46,630 nucleotides of DNA from Acidithiobacillus sp. (GTDB lineage Bacteria; Pseudomonadota; Gammaproteobacteria; Acidithiobacillales; Acidithiobacillaceae): positions 1-46,630 of the forward strand of contig NZ_JAGDWX010000026.1 in the NCBI RefSeq assembly GCF_023256195.1. The letters are read 5' to 3'. The notes under the pieces are model-generated. The model saw nothing but the letters and a program-made list of their open reading frames with translations. It was not told the DNA's origin and searched no databases. A program made the position numbers and the translations under genes. How positions within the stretch are numbered: the first letter of the stretch is position 1; each line of letters starts with the position of its first letter. This document shows positions 38,309-46,630 of the stretch, piece by piece.

Positions 38309-39949
38309 TCACTCCGTTTTCTGGATTCGCAAAAGCGCAATCTTCTGCTGATCATATAGTTCGAAGCGCACCAGCAGCACCGAGGCGCGAAGGGGCGGCT
38401 TCACAGCCGCGAGCACAGCCTGTACACGGGACTCCGGACATACCAGATAGAGTGGACGATGCTGCGCCAGCGCTGGCAACTCGTCCAAGAACTTCAGGCG
38501 CTGAATAGGCATGGCGCCCCGCCCGGCATAGAAGAGAAAATTCGGCTGAAACCATTGCCAGGCCGCCAGACCGTAAGGCGCGCCTTGCTGTATCTCGCGG
38601 ATCTTCTGTCCCATGGCGCGGGATGGCTTCAGGCTGTTGAATTCTGGGGTGTAGACCAGAACCAGCAGTGCGCTCAGAGATACCGCCCCCACGCCCAGGC
38701 TGATCAGAGCCGCGCGAAGCCACCGTTTCCAGAACAAAAAGGTCGCGACGACGGCGGCCGCTGCGTAGGGCAGGCCCACGAGGGCAAGCCTGGGAAGCTC
38801 CGGTTCCTGCCTCGGCAGAATCCAGCCGCCATAGACGCTGAGCGCGAGTCCTATGGCAAAGAGTACGAGGCCCGACGCCCAGTAGAGATACGGTGGATGG
38901 GTCTCCTGTTCGTGTAGGTACCGATCGAAATATACTGCCAGCAGAACAACCAGAGGTGGATACGATTCCCAGACGTAATTCGGCAATTTCGTCGCCGAAA
39001 GACTAAAGAAGACTGCCCAGACAACACCCCAGATCAGCATAAAGCAATTTTTGGCGTGACCCTCTCCCTGAGGAACGCGCTGCTCTCGAATGGCCAGCGT
39101 GAGCGCCTGGGGCAGAAAAATCGACCAAGGAAGCATCCCGAGAAAAATGCTCAGGGCATAGTAGAACCAGGGCCCCCGATGTCCCTGCATGCTCGAGTCG
39201 AAGCGCCCGATATTCTGCTGCAGCAAAAATACGCGGTCCCAGGACCAATGCGTCTCCAGGCCGACCGCCAGATACCAGGGCAGCGCGATGATCAGGAAGA
39301 GAGGAACGCCTATATATAGTCTTCCTTCACGCCACAGAAATCTGAGGTTTCCTTGTGTCAGCAAGAAAAGCACGATGATCAGGCCCGGCAGCAGAAAACC
39401 GATGGGCCCCTTGGCCAGGGTGGCAAGTGCCATGGCCGCATATGAAAACAGCAGAAATCGACTGCCTTGCTTTTCTCTCTCGGTATAGCCTATGAGAAAA
39501 AAGATAAGCGCCGCGGCAACGGTCAGGATCAGCAGCGGATCGGGTGTGGCACTGCGAAATATCACGGTGCTGTGCAGCAGGGTGACGGTCATCGCCGCTG
39601 CAAGCAGGGCAACACGGCGATTGTACAGCCGCTGGATGGACACCCATAGCAACAGGATGAGCAGCGCACCGACGAAGGCCGATCCCACACGCAATCCCAG
39701 CGAGTTCCAGCCGAAGACTTTGGTACCGCACCACATCAACCAGTAATTCAATATGGGCTTATCCGGCAGGATATGACCATTGAAGGTGGGCACCAAGAGA
39801 TTGTGATGAGCGATCATCTCCTTCAGGGATTGAGCGTAGATGGGCTCATCGATGTCCCACAGACTGGTATTGCCCGTAGCCCAAAAAAAATACTGGAAAG
39901 AGATGAAGAATACAGCGAAGGAAGTGGTAACGATAGAGAGCTTTTTCAT
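38309..39949 (-). CDS. ArnT-like lipid-linked glycosyltransferase (GT83)
   Basis: A polytopic inner-membrane transferase, 546 aa, of the ArnT/PMT clan, which moves a sugar from an undecaprenyl-phosphate donor to lipid A or another envelope glycan. The catalytic acidic motif is early, WDIDEPIYA (Asp 32, Asp 34, Glu 35), after TM1; about 12 TM segments follow, and the C-terminal part is a periplasmic domain of about 100 residues. ATG 39949 overlaps the GT2 stop as ATGA, so the GT2 enzyme likely makes the donor for this enzyme. Whether the sugar is aminoarabinose cannot be told; no other arn genes are here. Confidence 0.88.
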   Translation of the reverse strand: MKKLSIVTTSFAVFFISFQYFFWATGNTSLWDIDEPIYAQSLKEMIAHHNLLVPTFNGHILPDKPILNYWLMWCGTKVFGWNSLGLRVGSAFVGALLILLLWVSIQRLYNRRVALLAAAMTVTLLHSTVIFRSATPDPLLILTVAAALIFFLIGYTEREKQGSRFLLFSYAAMALATLAKGPIGFLLPGLIIVLFLLTQGNLRFLWREGRLYIGVPLFLIIALPWYLAVGLETHWSWDRVFLLQQNIGRFDSSMQGHRGPWFYYALSIFLGMLPWSIFLPQALTLAIREQRVPQGEGHAKNCFMLIWGVVWAVFFSLSATKLPNYVWESYPPLVVLLAVYFDRYLHEQETHPPYLYWASGLVLFAIGLALSVYGGWILPRQEPELPRLALVGLPYAAAAVVATFLFWKRWLRAALISLGVGAVSLSALLVLVYTPEFNSLKPSRAMGQKIREIQQGAPYGLAAWQWFQPNFLFYAGRGAMPIQRLKFLDELPALAQHRPLYLVCPESRVQAVLAAVKPPLRASVLLVRFELYDQQKIALLRIQKTE

Positions 39950-40917
39950 TTTTTTGTGCAAGCATCCGCGCCATCGGTATTGCTCGACCAGATATTGCGC
40001 ACCAAATAAATTGGACGATGCTTACTCTCTTCGTAGATACGGGAAAGGTATTCCCCAATGATGCCCAAGGCCAGCAACTGCACTCCCCCCAAGAACAAGA
40101 TCGCCACCATCAGCGAGGGATAGCCCTTGACTGGATTGCCATACACCAGCGTGCCGACGACCAGATAGACCGCATACACAAAAGCGAAAACAGAGACTAA
40201 AAGTCCCACGTGGGCGGCCAGCTGCAAGGGTACTTGGCTGAACGAGGTAATACCCTCCACAGCCAGCTTCCACAGGCTCCGATACCCCCACTTGCTCTTG
40301 CCGAGCTGGCGAGGCTCGCGGTGATAATACACATGGGTGGTTCGGAAACCGACCCAGGCGAACAAACCCTTCATGAATCGGCGGCGCTCCGGGAGGCGTT
40401 TGATGGCCTCCAGAACGGGCCGAGAAAGTAGGCGAAAATCTCCGGTATCTTCAGGAATGTCCACCTCGCTTACGCGGTTGAGGATCCGATAGAAGGCATG
40501 GGCGCTGACGCGCTTGGCCCAGGATTCCCCTTCGCGCGACCGCCGCACGGCATTGACCACATCGAAACCTTCGCGCCATTTGGCCAGCAGCTCCGGAATG
40601 AGTTCGGGTGGGTCCTGGAGGTCGGCGTCCAACGGGATGGCGCAATCTCCTCGGGCGTGATCCAGTCCTGCCGTCAGCGCCGCTTCCTTGCCGAAATTGC
40701 GGGAGAGATCGATCACCACGATGCGGGAATCGTTGCGGTTCAGGGCGAGGAGCTGCTCCAGGGTTTCGTCCCTGCTGCCATCGTTGATACACAGCATCTC
40801 CCAGGATTCGCCCGTCCGCTCCATAACGGCACACACGCGCCCGTAGAGAATGGGCAGATTTGCGGCTTCGTCGTGGCAGGGGACGACCAGAGAAACTACC
40901 GGACGTTTTGCGGTCAC
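39946..40917 (-). CDS. GT2 glycosyltransferase, ArnC/DPM1-like
   Basis: Makes polyprenyl-phosphate sugar on the cytoplasmic face, 323 aa. The GT-A domain has SLVVPCHDEAANLP, CINDGSRDETLE, DLSRNFGKEAALTAGLD, the metal motif LDADLQDPPELIP, and DTGDFRLLSRPV. Two C-terminal membrane spans follow (about residues 230-255 and 265-290), as in GtrB/ArnC-type proteins. It starts with GTG at 40917, with AAGG 6 nt upstream. It pairs with the ArnT-like gene. The donor nucleotide sugar is not evident. Confidence 0.9.
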   Translation of the reverse strand: MTAKRPVVSLVVPCHDEAANLPILYGRVCAVMERTGESWEMLCINDGSRDETLEQLLALNRNDSRIVVIDLSRNFGKEAALTAGLDHARGDCAIPLDADLQDPPELIPELLAKWREGFDVVNAVRRSREGESWAKRVSAHAFYRILNRVSEVDIPEDTGDFRLLSRPVLEAIKRLPERRRFMKGLFAWVGFRTTHVYYHREPRQLGKSKWGYRSLWKLAVEGITSFSQVPLQLAAHVGLLVSVFAFVYAVYLVVGTLVYGNPVKGYPSLMVAILFLGGVQLLALGIIGEYLSRIYEESKHRPIYLVRNIWSSNTDGADACTKK

Positions 40918-41004
40918 TTCCAGCCTTTGACTTGGTCTAATGGGTGTTCTGATGGTATCACCGAAATCGCAAGCACATCCACACCCATCAAGGGTCGCAC
41001 CAAT

Positions 41005-41328
41005 AAGGCGGATGCGCTGGCAGGGCCCTTGAACACAGAAGAATCGCGATGGATGGCGGCAAACTATTGCTTGGAGGGCGAAGAATTCGTCGTTTTGCTA
41101 CCGCTAAAGCGTCGCGAGGAGGCGCCACAGGTGGCCGAACGCCTGCGCCAGAGTATCTCCAAACAGCCCATTCAACTGGCCGATCACCTCGTCCCAGTGA
41201 CTATCGGTGTCGGGGGCACCCCATACCAAAGCTGTGAGGATCTCTGCGTCGACACCATCCCCCGCGCCGATCGAGCGCTCTATCGTGACAAGCAAGAAGG
41301 ACGCGATCTGCTGCCTACGGGGAGTTGA
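41005..41328 (+). pseudogene. Decayed GGDEF (diguanylate cyclase) fragment
   Basis: The plus strand encodes the back half of a GGDEF domain: the active-site loop reads EGEEF in place of GGEEF, followed by VVLLPL, then PVTIGVG and the final RADRALYRDKQEGRDLL, which are standard C-terminal GGDEF motifs. The segment DALAGPLN some 20 codons upstream resembles the DALTGLPN start of the domain, so about 40 residues between appear deleted. There is no sensor domain or start codon in context. It is a pseudogene lying just outside the left end of the Tn7-like element. Confidence 0.7.
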
Positions 41329-41697: not shown

Positions 41698-41949
41698 GTG
41701 ACCTTCATCGGCCGGTACGCAGCGAAAGCGAACATTCAAATAACCTACAGATGCGGGCAGGAAGAAGTTGCTGGTCATCACCGTGCCGCAAGACATATCA
41801 TTTCCGGAATGCGGGGCGCCGGCGCACAAGTGCTGGCGCCACAGTCCTTGCGGGAAGAGATCGCCCGAACCCTGCAGCGGGCCGCTGGCGTCTATGGGCA
41901 AACCGACCCACAGACACCCACTAATTCAAACGGAGAATACGCAGCATGA
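41698..41949 (+). pseudogene. C-terminal remnant of a WYL-type regulator
   Basis: An open frame on the plus strand ends with AGAQVLAPQSLREEIARTL and RAAGVYG, close to the conserved end of WYL-domain regulators (VLxPxxLRxEI...Y). ITYRCG upstream resembles the first WYL strand. The stop codon overlaps the DUF262 start as ATGA, so it was once a coupled first gene of this operon. No HTH part or proper start remains; the frame runs back towards the transposon end, and the middle of the WYL domain seems deleted. WYL proteins often control defence operons. The call is similarity by eye. Confidence 0.5.
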
Positions 41950-43385
41950 CCATTGAGAAAAAAGGCGTTCGAACGAGCACTGTCGGCGAACTGCTTGAGG
42001 AACATCTGCAAATCCCGTCCTACCAGCGCCCCTACAGCTGGTGGCCGGAAACGGCGCTGCAGTTGCTGGACGATTTGCGCGATGCCGCACAGCAAAGAGA
42101 CAAGGTGTCCTATGTGTTGGGTGCGGTGATTCTTCACCACGACGGTAAAATGCTCAACGTTGTCGACGGCCAGCAGCGCTTGCTCACTTTGCGCATCCTG
42201 CTCGATCTACTGGAAAACCAGAATGCCTATGAAGACCTCACAAATCCACCTGGCAAGGACACACCGCCCATCGTGAGGGTCATCAAGGACCTGAAACGGG
42301 AAATCAAGTGTTCTGCAGAAAACGCACAAGCGGATGCCACTACGCAAAGCGGCGCGAATCAGGCAAACGAGAATAAGAAGTTGGCCGATTTCATCAAGCA
42401 TAAATGCCAGATGATCCGTATTGAAACTGACGATATAGACGAAGCCTTCCGGGTGTTCGACTCGCAAAACTACCGGGGCAAGCCGCTGGCACCACACGAC
42501 CTGCTCAAAGCTTACCACCTGCGTGCCATGCGCCACGAAACCGCCGCCATGAAAGTGGCATTGATCGACGCTTGGGAATCGGCTGGCGACGCGGCGCTCG
42601 ACCATCTGTTCTCCCGCTATCTCTACCGCATCACCCGCTGGTCGCGCGGAGAAAATGCGCCGCAATTCACCGAGCGGGACATCGACCTATTCAAGGGGAT
42701 AGATCCAAGCCGGGACAGCACGCCCTATGCCCGCTACCACAGCATCGCCCAGACCGCGATGCCTCTGCTGTCGCTCCTGGATGCGAATGACTCCGACGAG
42801 ACGTCATCTGCCTTCGGGCATGCCAGTTTTCAGCGCGTCCTCGGACATGCCCGTTTCCAGTTGGATGCGCCCGTAGTGGCGGGACGTCTGTTCTTTGAGC
42901 GCGTCACCTTCATGCTCGGCGAGGTGAACCGGCTGATCAAGGACATCGCAAACCTGTACGCCGCCGAGTGGCCGACAGAAAGCAAACCGTTTCCGTTCTA
43001 TCGTGTCTCAGGTGATGGAACGCTCATCGAACAGCCTCCCGGCCGCTATCGCTATGTATCCGAGCTCTATCTAGCGGCGGCGCTGTATTACGTCAATAAG
43101 TTTGGGATGGAGAATTTCGAACGCCACCGCGACCTCCTTTTCGCCTGGGCCTACGCGCTGCGCACGGGATTGCTCCGCGTACAATACCGGTCGGTCGACA
43201 ACCATGCCAGCGAGAACGAACCAACAGTATCTGCCTTCAAGCTAATTCGTAATGCACGATCTGCCAATGAGCTGCGCGGCCTATCCCTCAGAGTTCTTCT
43301 GCCCAAAGGGCATTCCGAACACGAAGAACAACTCGCCAATTTTCTGAGACACAAGGGATTTGAAATCAGTGAATCACAGACATGA
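41946..43385 (+). CDS. DUF262-domain protein (GmrS-like)
   Basis: A 479-aa protein with the DUF262 hallmarks: IPSYQRPYSWW (residues 23-33), YVLGAVILHH, and the NTP-binding DGQQRLLTL at residues 74-82, plus the later FDSQNYRGKPLAPHDLLKAYHL. The C-terminal domain is helical and ends without any DUF1524 His-Asn-His signature, so this protein is probably an NTPase/sensor subunit without a nuclease. In GmrSD, the DUF262 subunit (GmrS) hydrolyses NTP to license cleavage of modified phage DNA. GGAGA lies 10 nt before ATG. Its 3' end overlaps the next gene by 17 nt. Confidence 0.87.
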   Translation: MTIEKKGVRTSTVGELLEEHLQIPSYQRPYSWWPETALQLLDDLRDAAQQRDKVSYVLGAVILHHDGKMLNVVDGQQRLLTLRILLDLLENQNAYEDLTNPPGKDTPPIVRVIKDLKREIKCSAENAQADATTQSGANQANENKKLADFIKHKCQMIRIETDDIDEAFRVFDSQNYRGKPLAPHDLLKAYHLRAMRHETAAMKVALIDAWESAGDAALDHLFSRYLYRITRWSRGENAPQFTERDIDLFKGIDPSRDSTPYARYHSIAQTAMPLLSLLDANDSDETSSAFGHASFQRVLGHARFQLDAPVVAGRLFFERVTFMLGEVNRLIKDIANLYAAEWPTESKPFPFYRVSGDGTLIEQPPGRYRYVSELYLAAALYYVNKFGMENFERHRDLLFAWAYALRTGLLRVQYRSVDNHASENEPTVSAFKLIRNARSANELRGLSLRVLLPKGHSEHEEQLANFLRHKGFEISESQT

Positions 43386-45297
43386 CGAAGCCAACAAGCT
43401 TCATCCAGAACTGCTAACCATCGGTGAAGTGTTCGGTGGCACAACGCACTACACGGTGCCGATCTATCAGCGCAACTACGCCTGGCAAATGGAGCAGATC
43501 GAGCAGATGCTGAGCGATATTTATGACGCGATGGATGTCCGGAGGGGAGATTACTTTCTTGGCAACATCATCGTCGCCCACCCAGAATCCGGCGTGTACA
43601 AAGTGATTGACGGCCAGCAACGGCTCACGTCGCTGTATCTGCTGTTGAGCCAGCTGGGGCACACAGCTCATCGTGGTCTGCTGCAGTACGAAGCGCGCCA
43701 GCGCGCCGCAGCGGCCCTAGAGAAGATCGCATCAGAGGATTTCAATGCCCAGGTCGCCCCGGACGCACCACACGGCGAAGATGAAACAACAGGTATTTGG
43801 CAGGGCTGGAAGTACATCTCCCAGTATCTCCGGCAGCACTTTAAGGGCGAAGATTCGAAGAGCAAACTCGAGATTTTTAAAAAATATGTTTTAGGGAACG
43901 TGACGGTCGTGCGCACGACGCTGCCGGAGGGGATCGATTTCAATCGCTACTTCGAGATCATGAATACCCGTGGCCGGCAGCTCCAGCAGGTCGATATCGT
44001 CAAGGCAAGACTGATGGCGCACCTGGTGGACGACGCCGAACGCGACTGCTTTGCCTGGATCTGGAACGCCTGCGCAGACATGGATGCCTATGTGCAGATA
44101 GCTCTGAAACACGAGAACAAGGAGTTGCGCACGCAGGTTTTCGGCGATAACTGTTCCTTTGTTAGTGTGACTAGCTTTGATGAATTATTGAAGTGTCTCG
44201 AAACTAATCCTGGGCAACACGGCGCGGGCGGAATCAATGAATCGGTTGGGCTCGCCGATGCGATCAAGGCATACGGCCAGAAGAGCGTCGAAAAAACTGA
44301 GAAAAACAAGGACACCGTGCACTTCCGCTCGATCATCACTTTCCCTTCATTCCTGTTGCATGTCCTGAAGATCGTTCAGAAGGATGATGCGGACGAGAAC
44401 GAAGGTCATCTGGACGATAAAATGCTCGTCAAACGCTTTACAAAATTCCTAAACGGTACAGAATTAGACAAGCGGAACAAGGCCAAAGAATTTGCTTTCG
44501 AATTGCTTCGATGCCGCAACCTTTTCGACAGTTATGTCATAAAGCGAGAATTCACCGGAACCTCTGACGACGATGGAGACTGGTCACTCAAGATCCTGTT
44601 CAAAGATGGGTTCTACAAGAATACGTATTCGACTAAAGAAAAGGAAAATGAAGATGACGACACCGATGCGGCAACCAAAGAATTATTGATGCTTGAATCG
44701 ATGCTGCGCGTGACCTACACCTCGCCGCGAACGATGCACTGGATCACCCGACTACTGAGGGTGCTGGCTAAAAAGCATCAAGGGTCGAAGACAATCGAGG
44801 AGTCGGTATTGGTTTCTGAACTGAGGGGTTATGCGCGGGATAAACTGAAGGATGCTTTCTTCGATGGTGAAGAGCAGCCGCAAGGTTTCAGCATCGAACG
44901 TATTGTGTTTACATACCTGGATTACCTTCTCTGGAAGGAAAAACCAAGGCCTGATTTCAGATTCACTTTCCGGAATTCGATCGAGCATTTTTATCCGCAA
45001 AACCCTAGGGACGGACAGAGTGGGAATGGTTCAGTTTCTAAAAATCTAATCGATTGCCTGGGCAACCTTGCGCTATTAAGCGTAAGCGACAACTCGCGTT
45101 TCAGTAACGATCTTCCGGAAACAAAAGCCACCTACGAGCACATCATCAATCAAAGCCAGAAATTAAAAAAAATGACGGAGATTGCCAAAATTCGATGGGA
45201 CGATGCTGCGGTGCTCGATCACCATAGAGAAATGGTCTCTCTCCTGAAACGAGATCTTGAACAGAAATACCCCGGAATCCAAAGTCATGAATGCTGA
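43369..45297 (+). CDS. DUF262-DUF1524 protein, putative HNH restriction nuclease
   Basis: A 642-aa protein combining both halves of GmrSD. N-terminal DUF262: VPIYQRNYAWQ, YFLGNIIV, DGQQRLTSLYLLL (Asp 81) and FEIMNTRGRQLQQVDIVKARLM. C-terminal DUF1524: SIEHFYPQNP with catalytic-type His 540, then LGNLALLSVSDNSRFSN and a Lys (ETKATY), the usual HNH-like set. The same architecture is found in SspE and BrxU-type anti-phage nucleases. GTG 43369 is chosen, with AAGGGA 10 nt upstream; TTG 43360 is three codons longer. Several stretches are AT-rich compared with the chromosome, a sign of transfer. The target modification is unknown. Confidence 0.88.
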   Translation: MNHRHDEANKLHPELLTIGEVFGGTTHYTVPIYQRNYAWQMEQIEQMLSDIYDAMDVRRGDYFLGNIIVAHPESGVYKVIDGQQRLTSLYLLLSQLGHTAHRGLLQYEARQRAAAALEKIASEDFNAQVAPDAPHGEDETTGIWQGWKYISQYLRQHFKGEDSKSKLEIFKKYVLGNVTVVRTTLPEGIDFNRYFEIMNTRGRQLQQVDIVKARLMAHLVDDAERDCFAWIWNACADMDAYVQIALKHENKELRTQVFGDNCSFVSVTSFDELLKCLETNPGQHGAGGINESVGLADAIKAYGQKSVEKTEKNKDTVHFRSIITFPSFLLHVLKIVQKDDADENEGHLDDKMLVKRFTKFLNGTELDKRNKAKEFAFELLRCRNLFDSYVIKREFTGTSDDDGDWSLKILFKDGFYKNTYSTKEKENEDDDTDAATKELLMLESMLRVTYTSPRTMHWITRLLRVLAKKHQGSKTIEESVLVSELRGYARDKLKDAFFDGEEQPQGFSIERIVFTYLDYLLWKEKPRPDFRFTFRNSIEHFYPQNPRDGQSGNGSVSKNLIDCLGNLALLSVSDNSRFSNDLPETKATYEHIINQSQKLKKMTEIAKIRWDDAAVLDHHREMVSLLKRDLEQKYPGIQSHEC

Positions 45298-45691
45298 CAA
45301 CGAACGCCGCTTGCGTGAGGCCTTTCCCGCGCTTTATCGGAAGGAGCTACCTTTCGGCTTCGAGTGCGGCGATGGTTGGTTTGGCATCCTCTGGGAGCTG
45401 TCCGAGTCGTTGGACGCCGAGTCGAAGGCCACCGGCAACCCGCCGGATTCGGACCGGTATCCCTACGCGGTGCAGGTCAAAAGCAAATTCTGCATGTTGC
45501 GCTGGTACGGCGAGAACCTCAACGAAGCGATGGATGCCCTGATCGAAGCAGCGAGCGCCCGGGCGAGTACAAGCTGCGAAACCTGTGGTGCCCCCGGGCG
45601 GCTCTGGGTTCGCCGCAGATGGTATCGGGTCTGCTGCGATACGCATGTGCCACCAGGCAGTCAACTCGTCGAAGACGGCAAGTCGGGCTGA
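45287..45691 (+). CDS. Small protein with zinc-ribbon-like tail, unknown
   Basis: A 134-aa protein overlapping the nuclease gene by 11 nt, so co-translated with it. The N-terminal part contains FGFECGDGWFGILWELSESL and a QVKSKFCMLRWYGENLNEAM segment. The C-terminal part has CETCGAPG (Cys 97, Cys 100), then CCDTH (Cys 116, Cys 117, His 120), which could bind zinc. I recall similar uncharacterised proteins with the FECGDGWF/QVKxKFxxLR/CxxCGxPG outline in phages and bacterial accessory regions, but no function. As third member of the cassette it may be an accessory, adaptor or immunity protein. Confidence 0.72.
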   Translation: MNADNERRLREAFPALYRKELPFGFECGDGWFGILWELSESLDAESKATGNPPDSDRYPYAVQVKSKFCMLRWYGENLNEAMDALIEAASARASTSCETCGAPGRLWVRRRWYRVCCDTHVPPGSQLVEDGKSG

Positions 45692-46453
45692 CGCGCTTCG
45701 CCCCTGCCCACGACTCTGCCCGAGACGTGATGACGCACCTCTTCTGTAGCGTCTGATCAAGGTGCTCCGGGCGGTTCCGGTACACCAAGGCGATACGGCG
45801 CTGAGCGCCGGCCGACACTGGATTACCCGCCTCTTGCGGCGCCTCCCGGCCCGGCCCACATCGGCTCCCGGGTCGATTTAGCCTGGACATTTTGAAATAG
45901 GCGCCATTCCCCGTCTTAACAACAAAGCGGTCTTTTGAATTTCTATGCTGGAGTTTAGGCAAACAGTCTCATCACCGGCCCATTTGGGTGATGGCGTGGC
46001 TTGGTATTGCTGAGTCAGAAGTTGGTTAGGCGGCCTGTTTTCGGGGCGGGTCGTCGGTATGGGCCAAAAAAAGGCGGGAGAGGGGCACTGTGCAAAGCCC
46101 CCGATTACCTGGACACGATTTTTCACAAATCACGCCGCCTCTGCGATTACCGCATGGGCGGCGCACACCCGCGCCGGCGTGGCATAGTCATGCCGCTTGA
46201 GCAGCCAGTGCTCATTAAATCGAAGTGCCGCCATACAGATAACTACTTTGGATCGTATAATACCCTTGAGTTTCCGCTGCTGAATGTCTGCAATCAGTCT
46301 CAAGCAGCCGTTTAATGGATCAATAGTGCCCCCCAAGGGAACCTGCTGTCACGAATCGGCAATCCTCGTGCTGCGAGGGTTATGCCTGGGGACCAGGGCC
46401 ACACGTCGAACCAAGCGACAGGATAGGGTCGTCATGATCAGTCTTGGTGTAGC
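45692..46453. other. Non-coding right arm of the Tn7-like element
   Basis: Apart from the IS3 fragment there is no gene I can support in these 760 bases. A minus-strand frame at 46130-46336 (ending in LRFNEHWLLKRHDYATPARV) has a transposase-like flavour but no family I can name. The motif CGATT..CCTGGACA followed by ATTTT occurs twice in the same orientation, near 45878-45905 and 46104-46126, and may mark IS ends flanking the IS3 piece. Confidence 0.35.
45968..46075 (-). pseudogene. IS3-family transposase (OrfB) fragment
   Basis: Read on the minus strand, about 36 codons contain RPPNQLLTQQYQATPSPKWAGD, in parts very close to the conserved N-side of the IS3 OrfB integrase core (NxLL.. F.A..PN.KWAGDITY). 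Right after WAGD the similarity stops (ETVCLNSS), before the DDE residues, and nothing upstream looks like OrfA. It is a remnant of an insertion inside the Tn7-like element. Confidence 0.55.
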
Positions 46454-46474
46454 CCATGCGCAAACTATATTACC
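46454..46474 (-). repeat. Second TnsB-like site at the right end
   Basis: The minus strand reads GGTAATATAGTTTGCGCATG plus G, matching the left-end internal unit at 18 of 21 positions and lying one 20-bp step inside the terminal unit, so the two overlap by a base. A weaker third copy ending in TGATCATG follows at about 46432-46454. Overlapping sites at about this spacing are a feature of the Tn7 right end. Confidence 0.7.
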
Positions 46475-46502
46475 CATAATCATACTTTATTGCCTGCGAA
46501 CA
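46474..46502 (-). repeat. Right terminal repeat of the Tn7-like element
   Basis: On the minus strand it begins TGTTCGCAGG and continues CAATAAAGTATGATTATGG; 23 of 29 bases match the left end. CAATAAAGT is also present at the same distance from the tip in the right end of Tn7 itself, as I recall that sequence. The tip lies 24 bp from the glmS stop codon. Confidence 0.82.
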
Positions 46503-46507
46503 GTCGC
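46503..46507. repeat. Right 5-bp target-site duplication (GTCGC)
   Basis: GTCGC directly abuts the outer ACA/TGT tip of the right end and equals the duplication at 41528-41532. It falls inside the sequence downstream of glmS where Tn7 integrates. Confidence 0.85.
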
Positions 46508-46526
46508 CGCCATTTTGCCGCCTATC

Positions 46527-46630
46527 TCACTCGACCGTGACGGCCTTGGCAAGGTTGCGCGGACGATCGACGTCGGTCCCTTTCACCAGTGCGGCATGAT
46601 AGGCAAGCAATTGTACCGGTATAGCGTGCA
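46527..46630 (-). CDS. glmS: Glucosamine-fructose-6-phosphate aminotransferase, C-terminal end
   Basis: The last 34 codons of GlmS, which makes glucosamine 6-phosphate for cell-wall synthesis; the rest lies beyond the window. The reading ends with [20 protein letters not shown] and LAKAVTVE then TGA, the nearly invariant GlmS terminus. This 3' end is also the recognition site of TnsD for Tn7 integration, so the gene defines the insertion point of the neighbouring element. Confidence 0.96.

Follow-up and report, generated by a model that had tools for sequence, protein, structure and literature searches.

The window analysed here is the whole of contig C16 (46,630 nt) of an Acidithiobacillus sp. 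genome. Towards its end lie two adjacent genes for DUF262 proteins, with the following features in and around them:

41698 to 41949, forward strand: decayed upstream scrap, about 25 residues of the WCX domain (C-terminal domain of WYL regulators; Pfam PF25583)
41946 to 43385, forward strand: gene 2 (TgvA-like), 479 aa, N-terminal DUF262 (GmrSD_N) and C-terminal DUF7834, no nuclease domain
43369 to 45297, forward strand: gene 3 (TgvB-like), 642 aa from GTG, DUF262 and DUF1524 His-Me nuclease
45287 to 45691, forward strand: gene 4, 134-aa Cys-rich, zinc-binding-like protein of an uncharacterised phage/plasmid family, probably outside the system
46294 to 46630, reverse strand: partial repeat of the glmS 3' end and the region downstream of it, at the contig end, recognized by nucleotide identity

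A first-pass annotation of this DNA had reported coding segments overlapping by 4, 17 and 11 nt, and re-reading of the open reading frames bore out both their ends and these overlaps. Gene 2 begins at 41946 and shares 4 nt with the upstream ORF, which runs to 41949. From its GTG at 43369 (a TTG at 43360 is an alternative start), gene 3 shares 17 nt with gene 2, whose last base is 43385. The ATG of gene 4 at 45287 lies 11 nt inside gene 3, which stops at 45297.

Gene 2 encodes a DUF262 protein without a nuclease. Pfam places PF03235 (GmrSD_N/DUF262) at residues 15-191 (E 5e-30) and PF25202 (DUF7834) at 203-454 (E 1e-50), and no DUF1524 was detected by Pfam. The product of gene 3, numbered from the TTG at 43360, contains PF03235 (GmrSD_N) at 22-219 (E 1.5e-31) and PF07510 (GmrSD_C/DUF1524) at 494-626 (E 1e-12). 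The DUF262 and DUF262-DUF1524 assignments made earlier from the sequence are thus upheld by Pfam. The QR (Q27-R28), DGQQR (D74-R78) and FxxxN (F171-N175) motifs of gene 2 are 100% conserved across 84 aligned sequences. Their counterparts in gene 3 are Q34-R35, D81-R85 (DGQQR) and F195-N199, followed by the His-Me nuclease residues H540, N566, N575 and N580. In the alignment of 83 gene-3 sequences, where contig ends cut some rows and so affect the percentages, DGQQR is 97% conserved and the catalytic columns reach 92% (H540), 92% (N566), 93% (N575) and 85% (N580). The residues previously singled out for mutation, D74 of gene 2 and D81 and H540 of gene 3, all fall inside conserved motifs of these alignments.

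The structural model of gene 2 has a pLDDT of 85. Its best matches among solved structures are SspE, DndI and BrxU (Foldseek E 8e-6 to 4e-3), followed by ParB domains. VIA-align superposed the model on SspE with Z 14.2 (rmsd 19.9 over 318 residues), on DndI with Z 13.0 (rmsd 7.0 over 344 residues) and on BrxU with Z 7.4 (rmsd 18.9 over 319 residues). Since the rmsd values are large, the domains match those of solved relatives, whereas their mutual placement does not. SspE and DndI are DUF262-DUF1524 enzymes that sense phosphorothioation and, unlike the pair described here, operate with host phosphorothioation genes; none of these was found among the Pfam-scanned ORFs near the pair. The best PADLOC names for the pair (HEC-06, Orf5 and SspE) were rejected, as they reflect the common DUF262 domain. 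No paper on DUF7834 was found in the literature collection searched.

Genes 2 and 3 travel together. Scanning a gene-2 alignment against one genome per species confirmed at least 346 relatives, and the best 80 loci were kept. In 79 of these best 80 loci, the next gene downstream, on the same strand, is a gene-3 relative; the one exception (L081) stops at a contig end. An HsdR-like ORF follows gene 3 within a few dozen bases in eight of the same 80 loci (L022, L040, L044, L047, L051, L061, L071 and L075), and five of these (L044, L047, L051, L061 and L075) also have an HsdS-like ORF directly before gene 2, a layout confirmed with Pfam at L075 only. A long downstream ORF at L024 turned out to be a UvrD-type helicase-nuclease.

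The pair is also found on plasmids. In PLSDB, gene-2 relatives were detected in 889 of 72,556 plasmid records, 853 of them from Klebsiella, and gene-3 relatives in 885 records. All four plasmid loci that we viewed contain the pair, each gene being split into two shorter ORFs at L009. The TgvA-like relatives of Klebsiella plasmids belong to at least two lineages, roughly 47% and 29% identical to gene 2, and the plasmids that carry them are often conjugative (for example L004 and L007). Closer to the host, a full-length gene-2 relative was absent from the 28 other same-family genomes searched, five of which had short DUF262 matches only (at most about 41 bits, where the window itself scores 1089 bits). 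The genome itself has another DUF262 gene (G000:C1:17602-18363; L003), located inside a 573-aa open frame.

The segment upstream of gene 2 had been presented as the first gene of the cassette, a WYL remnant. It is not an intact gene: of the 76 positions in the WCX profile, only 52-76 are matched (E 1.7e-5 when read from 41698, 6.5e-5 within the long ORF), and no WYL domain was found in the frames tested. Among the upstream ORFs of related loci sent to Pfam, one (L073) was a WYL gene, and jackhmmer searches started from it retrieved no other among the 80 loci. A WYL regulator was accordingly rejected as a regular partner in the 80-locus sample, at the sensitivity of jackhmmer. Further upstream, Pfam recognized the C-terminal fragment of a GGDEF (diguanylate cyclase) domain at 40498-41325, and the region 38312-40917 encodes PMT-type and family 2 glycosyltransferases, with related DNA at two other places in the same-genus genome G274.

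The contig ends next to a likely insertion site. At 96% identity, positions 46294-46630 (337 bp) match a stretch of contig C8 (G000:C8:129375-129709) that contains the end of a full gene, taken to be glmS by its sequence rather than by a family search. The neighbourhood of glmS is a long-known insertion site, the attachment site of Tn7, and the partial repeat suggests an insertion next to glmS. In genome G286, glmS follows the UvrD-DnaJ block after about 460 bp; in G274, which belongs to the same genus, the two are separated by about 14 kb of other genes. Together, the repeat and this difference in spacing place the pair in a variable region next to glmS. The earlier claim that the pair sits on a mobile element therefore stands in part: a variable region is indicated by the repeat, but none of the eight tyrosine integrase matches in the genome is on contig C16. 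Around the pair, neither an integrase nor a transposase was found by the searches run, including those of the Pfam-scanned ORFs near it. The TnsA-like family of Tn7 had no match in this genome, nor in the control genomes. Location on a mobile element is plausible.

These surroundings might also be read as those of a decaying, inactive locus, a relic in a degraded island. The GGDEF and WCX fragments that flank the pair, as well as the partial glmS copy, would fit such a history. Genes 2 and 3 are nevertheless full-length with all motifs intact, which makes decay improbable. A functional pair with an unrelated gene downstream is the most likely reading of the locus.

TgvAB, first reported from Vibrio cholerae, is a GmrSD-like type IV restriction system that consists of two proteins (PMC11411939). 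In the VPI-2 island (VC1767-VC1766), TgvA, a DUF262 protein, is followed by TgvB, a DUF262-DUF1524 protein, and tgvAB sits between hsdS and hsdR according to the same report (PMC11411939). The modification sensed by TgvAB is glycosylated hydroxymethylcytosine. A survey of 41,142 genomes returned 1,341 hits (PMC11411939). Protection against T-even phages is reported to need both tgvA and tgvB, the DGQQR motifs of both proteins and the catalytic His/Asn of TgvB (PMC11411939, PMC12409362). The pair described here has the same order, with a nuclease-less DUF262 protein first and a DUF262-DUF1524 protein second, the same QR, DGQQR, FxxxN and His-Me motifs, and conserved adjacency. Moreover, its relatives embedded between hsdS and hsdR reproduce the published V. 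cholerae layout, which ties the family to TgvAB. Unlike tgvAB, the pair in the window lies outside a type I restriction-modification operon and has an unrelated small gene downstream. From architecture, gene order, motifs and the shared synteny of relatives, assignment to the TgvAB type appears well supported.

Other DUF262-DUF1524 systems share some features with the pair. Gene 3 has the two-domain architecture of the single-chain enzymes Eco94GmrSD and BrxU, but these function as single proteins, with no DUF262 partner. A second two-protein GmrSD-like system, GrwAB of the V. cholerae WASA lineage, likewise combines a DUF262 protein with a DUF262-DUF1524 protein, both of which are reported to be needed (PMC12137116), so the pair could in principle represent GrwAB or another two-gene branch rather than TgvAB. 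In the published GrwAB, however, the nuclease gene precedes its partner, and the C-terminal part of GrwB is longer and made up of several domains (PMC12137116, PMC12409362). Here the nuclease gene comes second, the partner encoded by gene 2 is short (479 aa) with one known C-terminal family, and relatives of the pair lie between hsdS and hsdR, as tgvAB does. We regard a GrwAB-type or other affiliation as highly unlikely.

Genes 2 and 3 thus very probably encode a two-protein type IV restriction system of the GmrSD family and the TgvAB type, which was acquired horizontally and from which gene 4 is separate. The first-pass annotation took the pair for a new composition; it is common and has been in print since 2024 in reports describing TgvAB and GrwAB (PMC11411939, PMC12137116, PMC12409362). 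The anti-phage role proposed at the same time is well supported for genes 2 and 3, as type IV restriction, by homology to the experimentally tested TgvAB. Activity, substrate and complex formation are inferred from TgvAB. The DUF262 (ParB/Srx-like) domains would allow each of the two proteins to bind and hydrolyse NTP, and the two would jointly sense modified phage DNA, which the DUF1524 His-Me nuclease of gene 3 would then cut. As GrwAB shows, targets differ within two-gene GmrSD-like pairs (PMC12137116). Gene 4 would be no component of this system but a separate accessory gene that came to lie immediately behind the pair. The locus is largely ordinary, a known kind of enzyme that a common phage/plasmid gene adjoins by chance, and it extends the host distribution of this published two-protein system by one. 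Why TgvB needs TgvA is the more open question, and interest there lies in the DUF7834 half of TgvA, which the gene-2 model covers.

Gene 4 is a small Cys-rich protein with no match in Pfam, NCBIfam, PADLOC or PHROGs. The consensus of its family, FGFECGDGWF...QVKEKFG.LRFY...CExCGxPG...CDxH, has a conserved CxxC...CxxH pattern in which Cys97, Cys100 and Cys117 are invariant or nearly so. These cysteines make the zinc-binding description given earlier a reasonable one. We confirmed 290 relatives in viral contigs, and others are present in 35 plasmid and 13 phage records; a further one occurs by itself in a genome from the same order. The family (45287-45691; L006; L094-L173) is widespread in phages and plasmids and uncharacterised.

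The first-pass annotation had joined gene 4 to the pair in a single translational unit. A three-gene system of this kind, with the zinc protein, possibly captured from a phage, as a regulatory or targeting subunit, draws on several features of the locus: gene 4 is on the same strand, its 11-nt overlap with gene 3 would allow translational coupling, and its product is a genuine, conserved protein whose fold is predicted with confidence (pLDDT 95). Comparison with related loci argues against it. None of the 80 pair loci, 76 of which extend at least 450 bp beyond gene 3, yielded a relative to a gene-4 profile; the 80 are the best of at least 346 gene-2 relatives, and a rare association elsewhere could be missed. 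Only L060 among the 76 has a CxxC-bearing ORF after gene 3, which is 273 aa long and unmatched by the gene-4 profile. Conversely, no DUF262 match was found in the fetched flanks of 80 viral gene-4 loci, kept from the 290. The six plasmid gene-4 neighbourhoods viewed had no DUF262 annotation and consisted mostly of runs of small hypothetical genes. GC content also differs (0.62 in gene 4 vs 0.50 in gene 3). On co-occurrence in these loci, gene 4 was rejected as a subunit. The annotation had itself named as its refuting condition that the third gene never co-occurs with the pair elsewhere, and the neighbourhood check found just this in the 80 related loci, so that the three-gene unit is refuted by its own criterion; with the evidence on both sides taken together, we judge a three-gene system very doubtful. 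Slightly less probable still is that a phage-type zinc protein was captured behind the TgvAB pair and has come to modulate its action; an inhibitor or adaptor once used by phages against modification-dependent nucleases would be one example.

The predicted fold of gene 4 has no PDB match at E <= 0.001, and the best VIA-align Z of 4.3 is uninformative. Six viral matches were retrieved at the same E threshold; of the three that are named, one is labelled thymidine kinase and the other two are uncharacterised proteins of phages.
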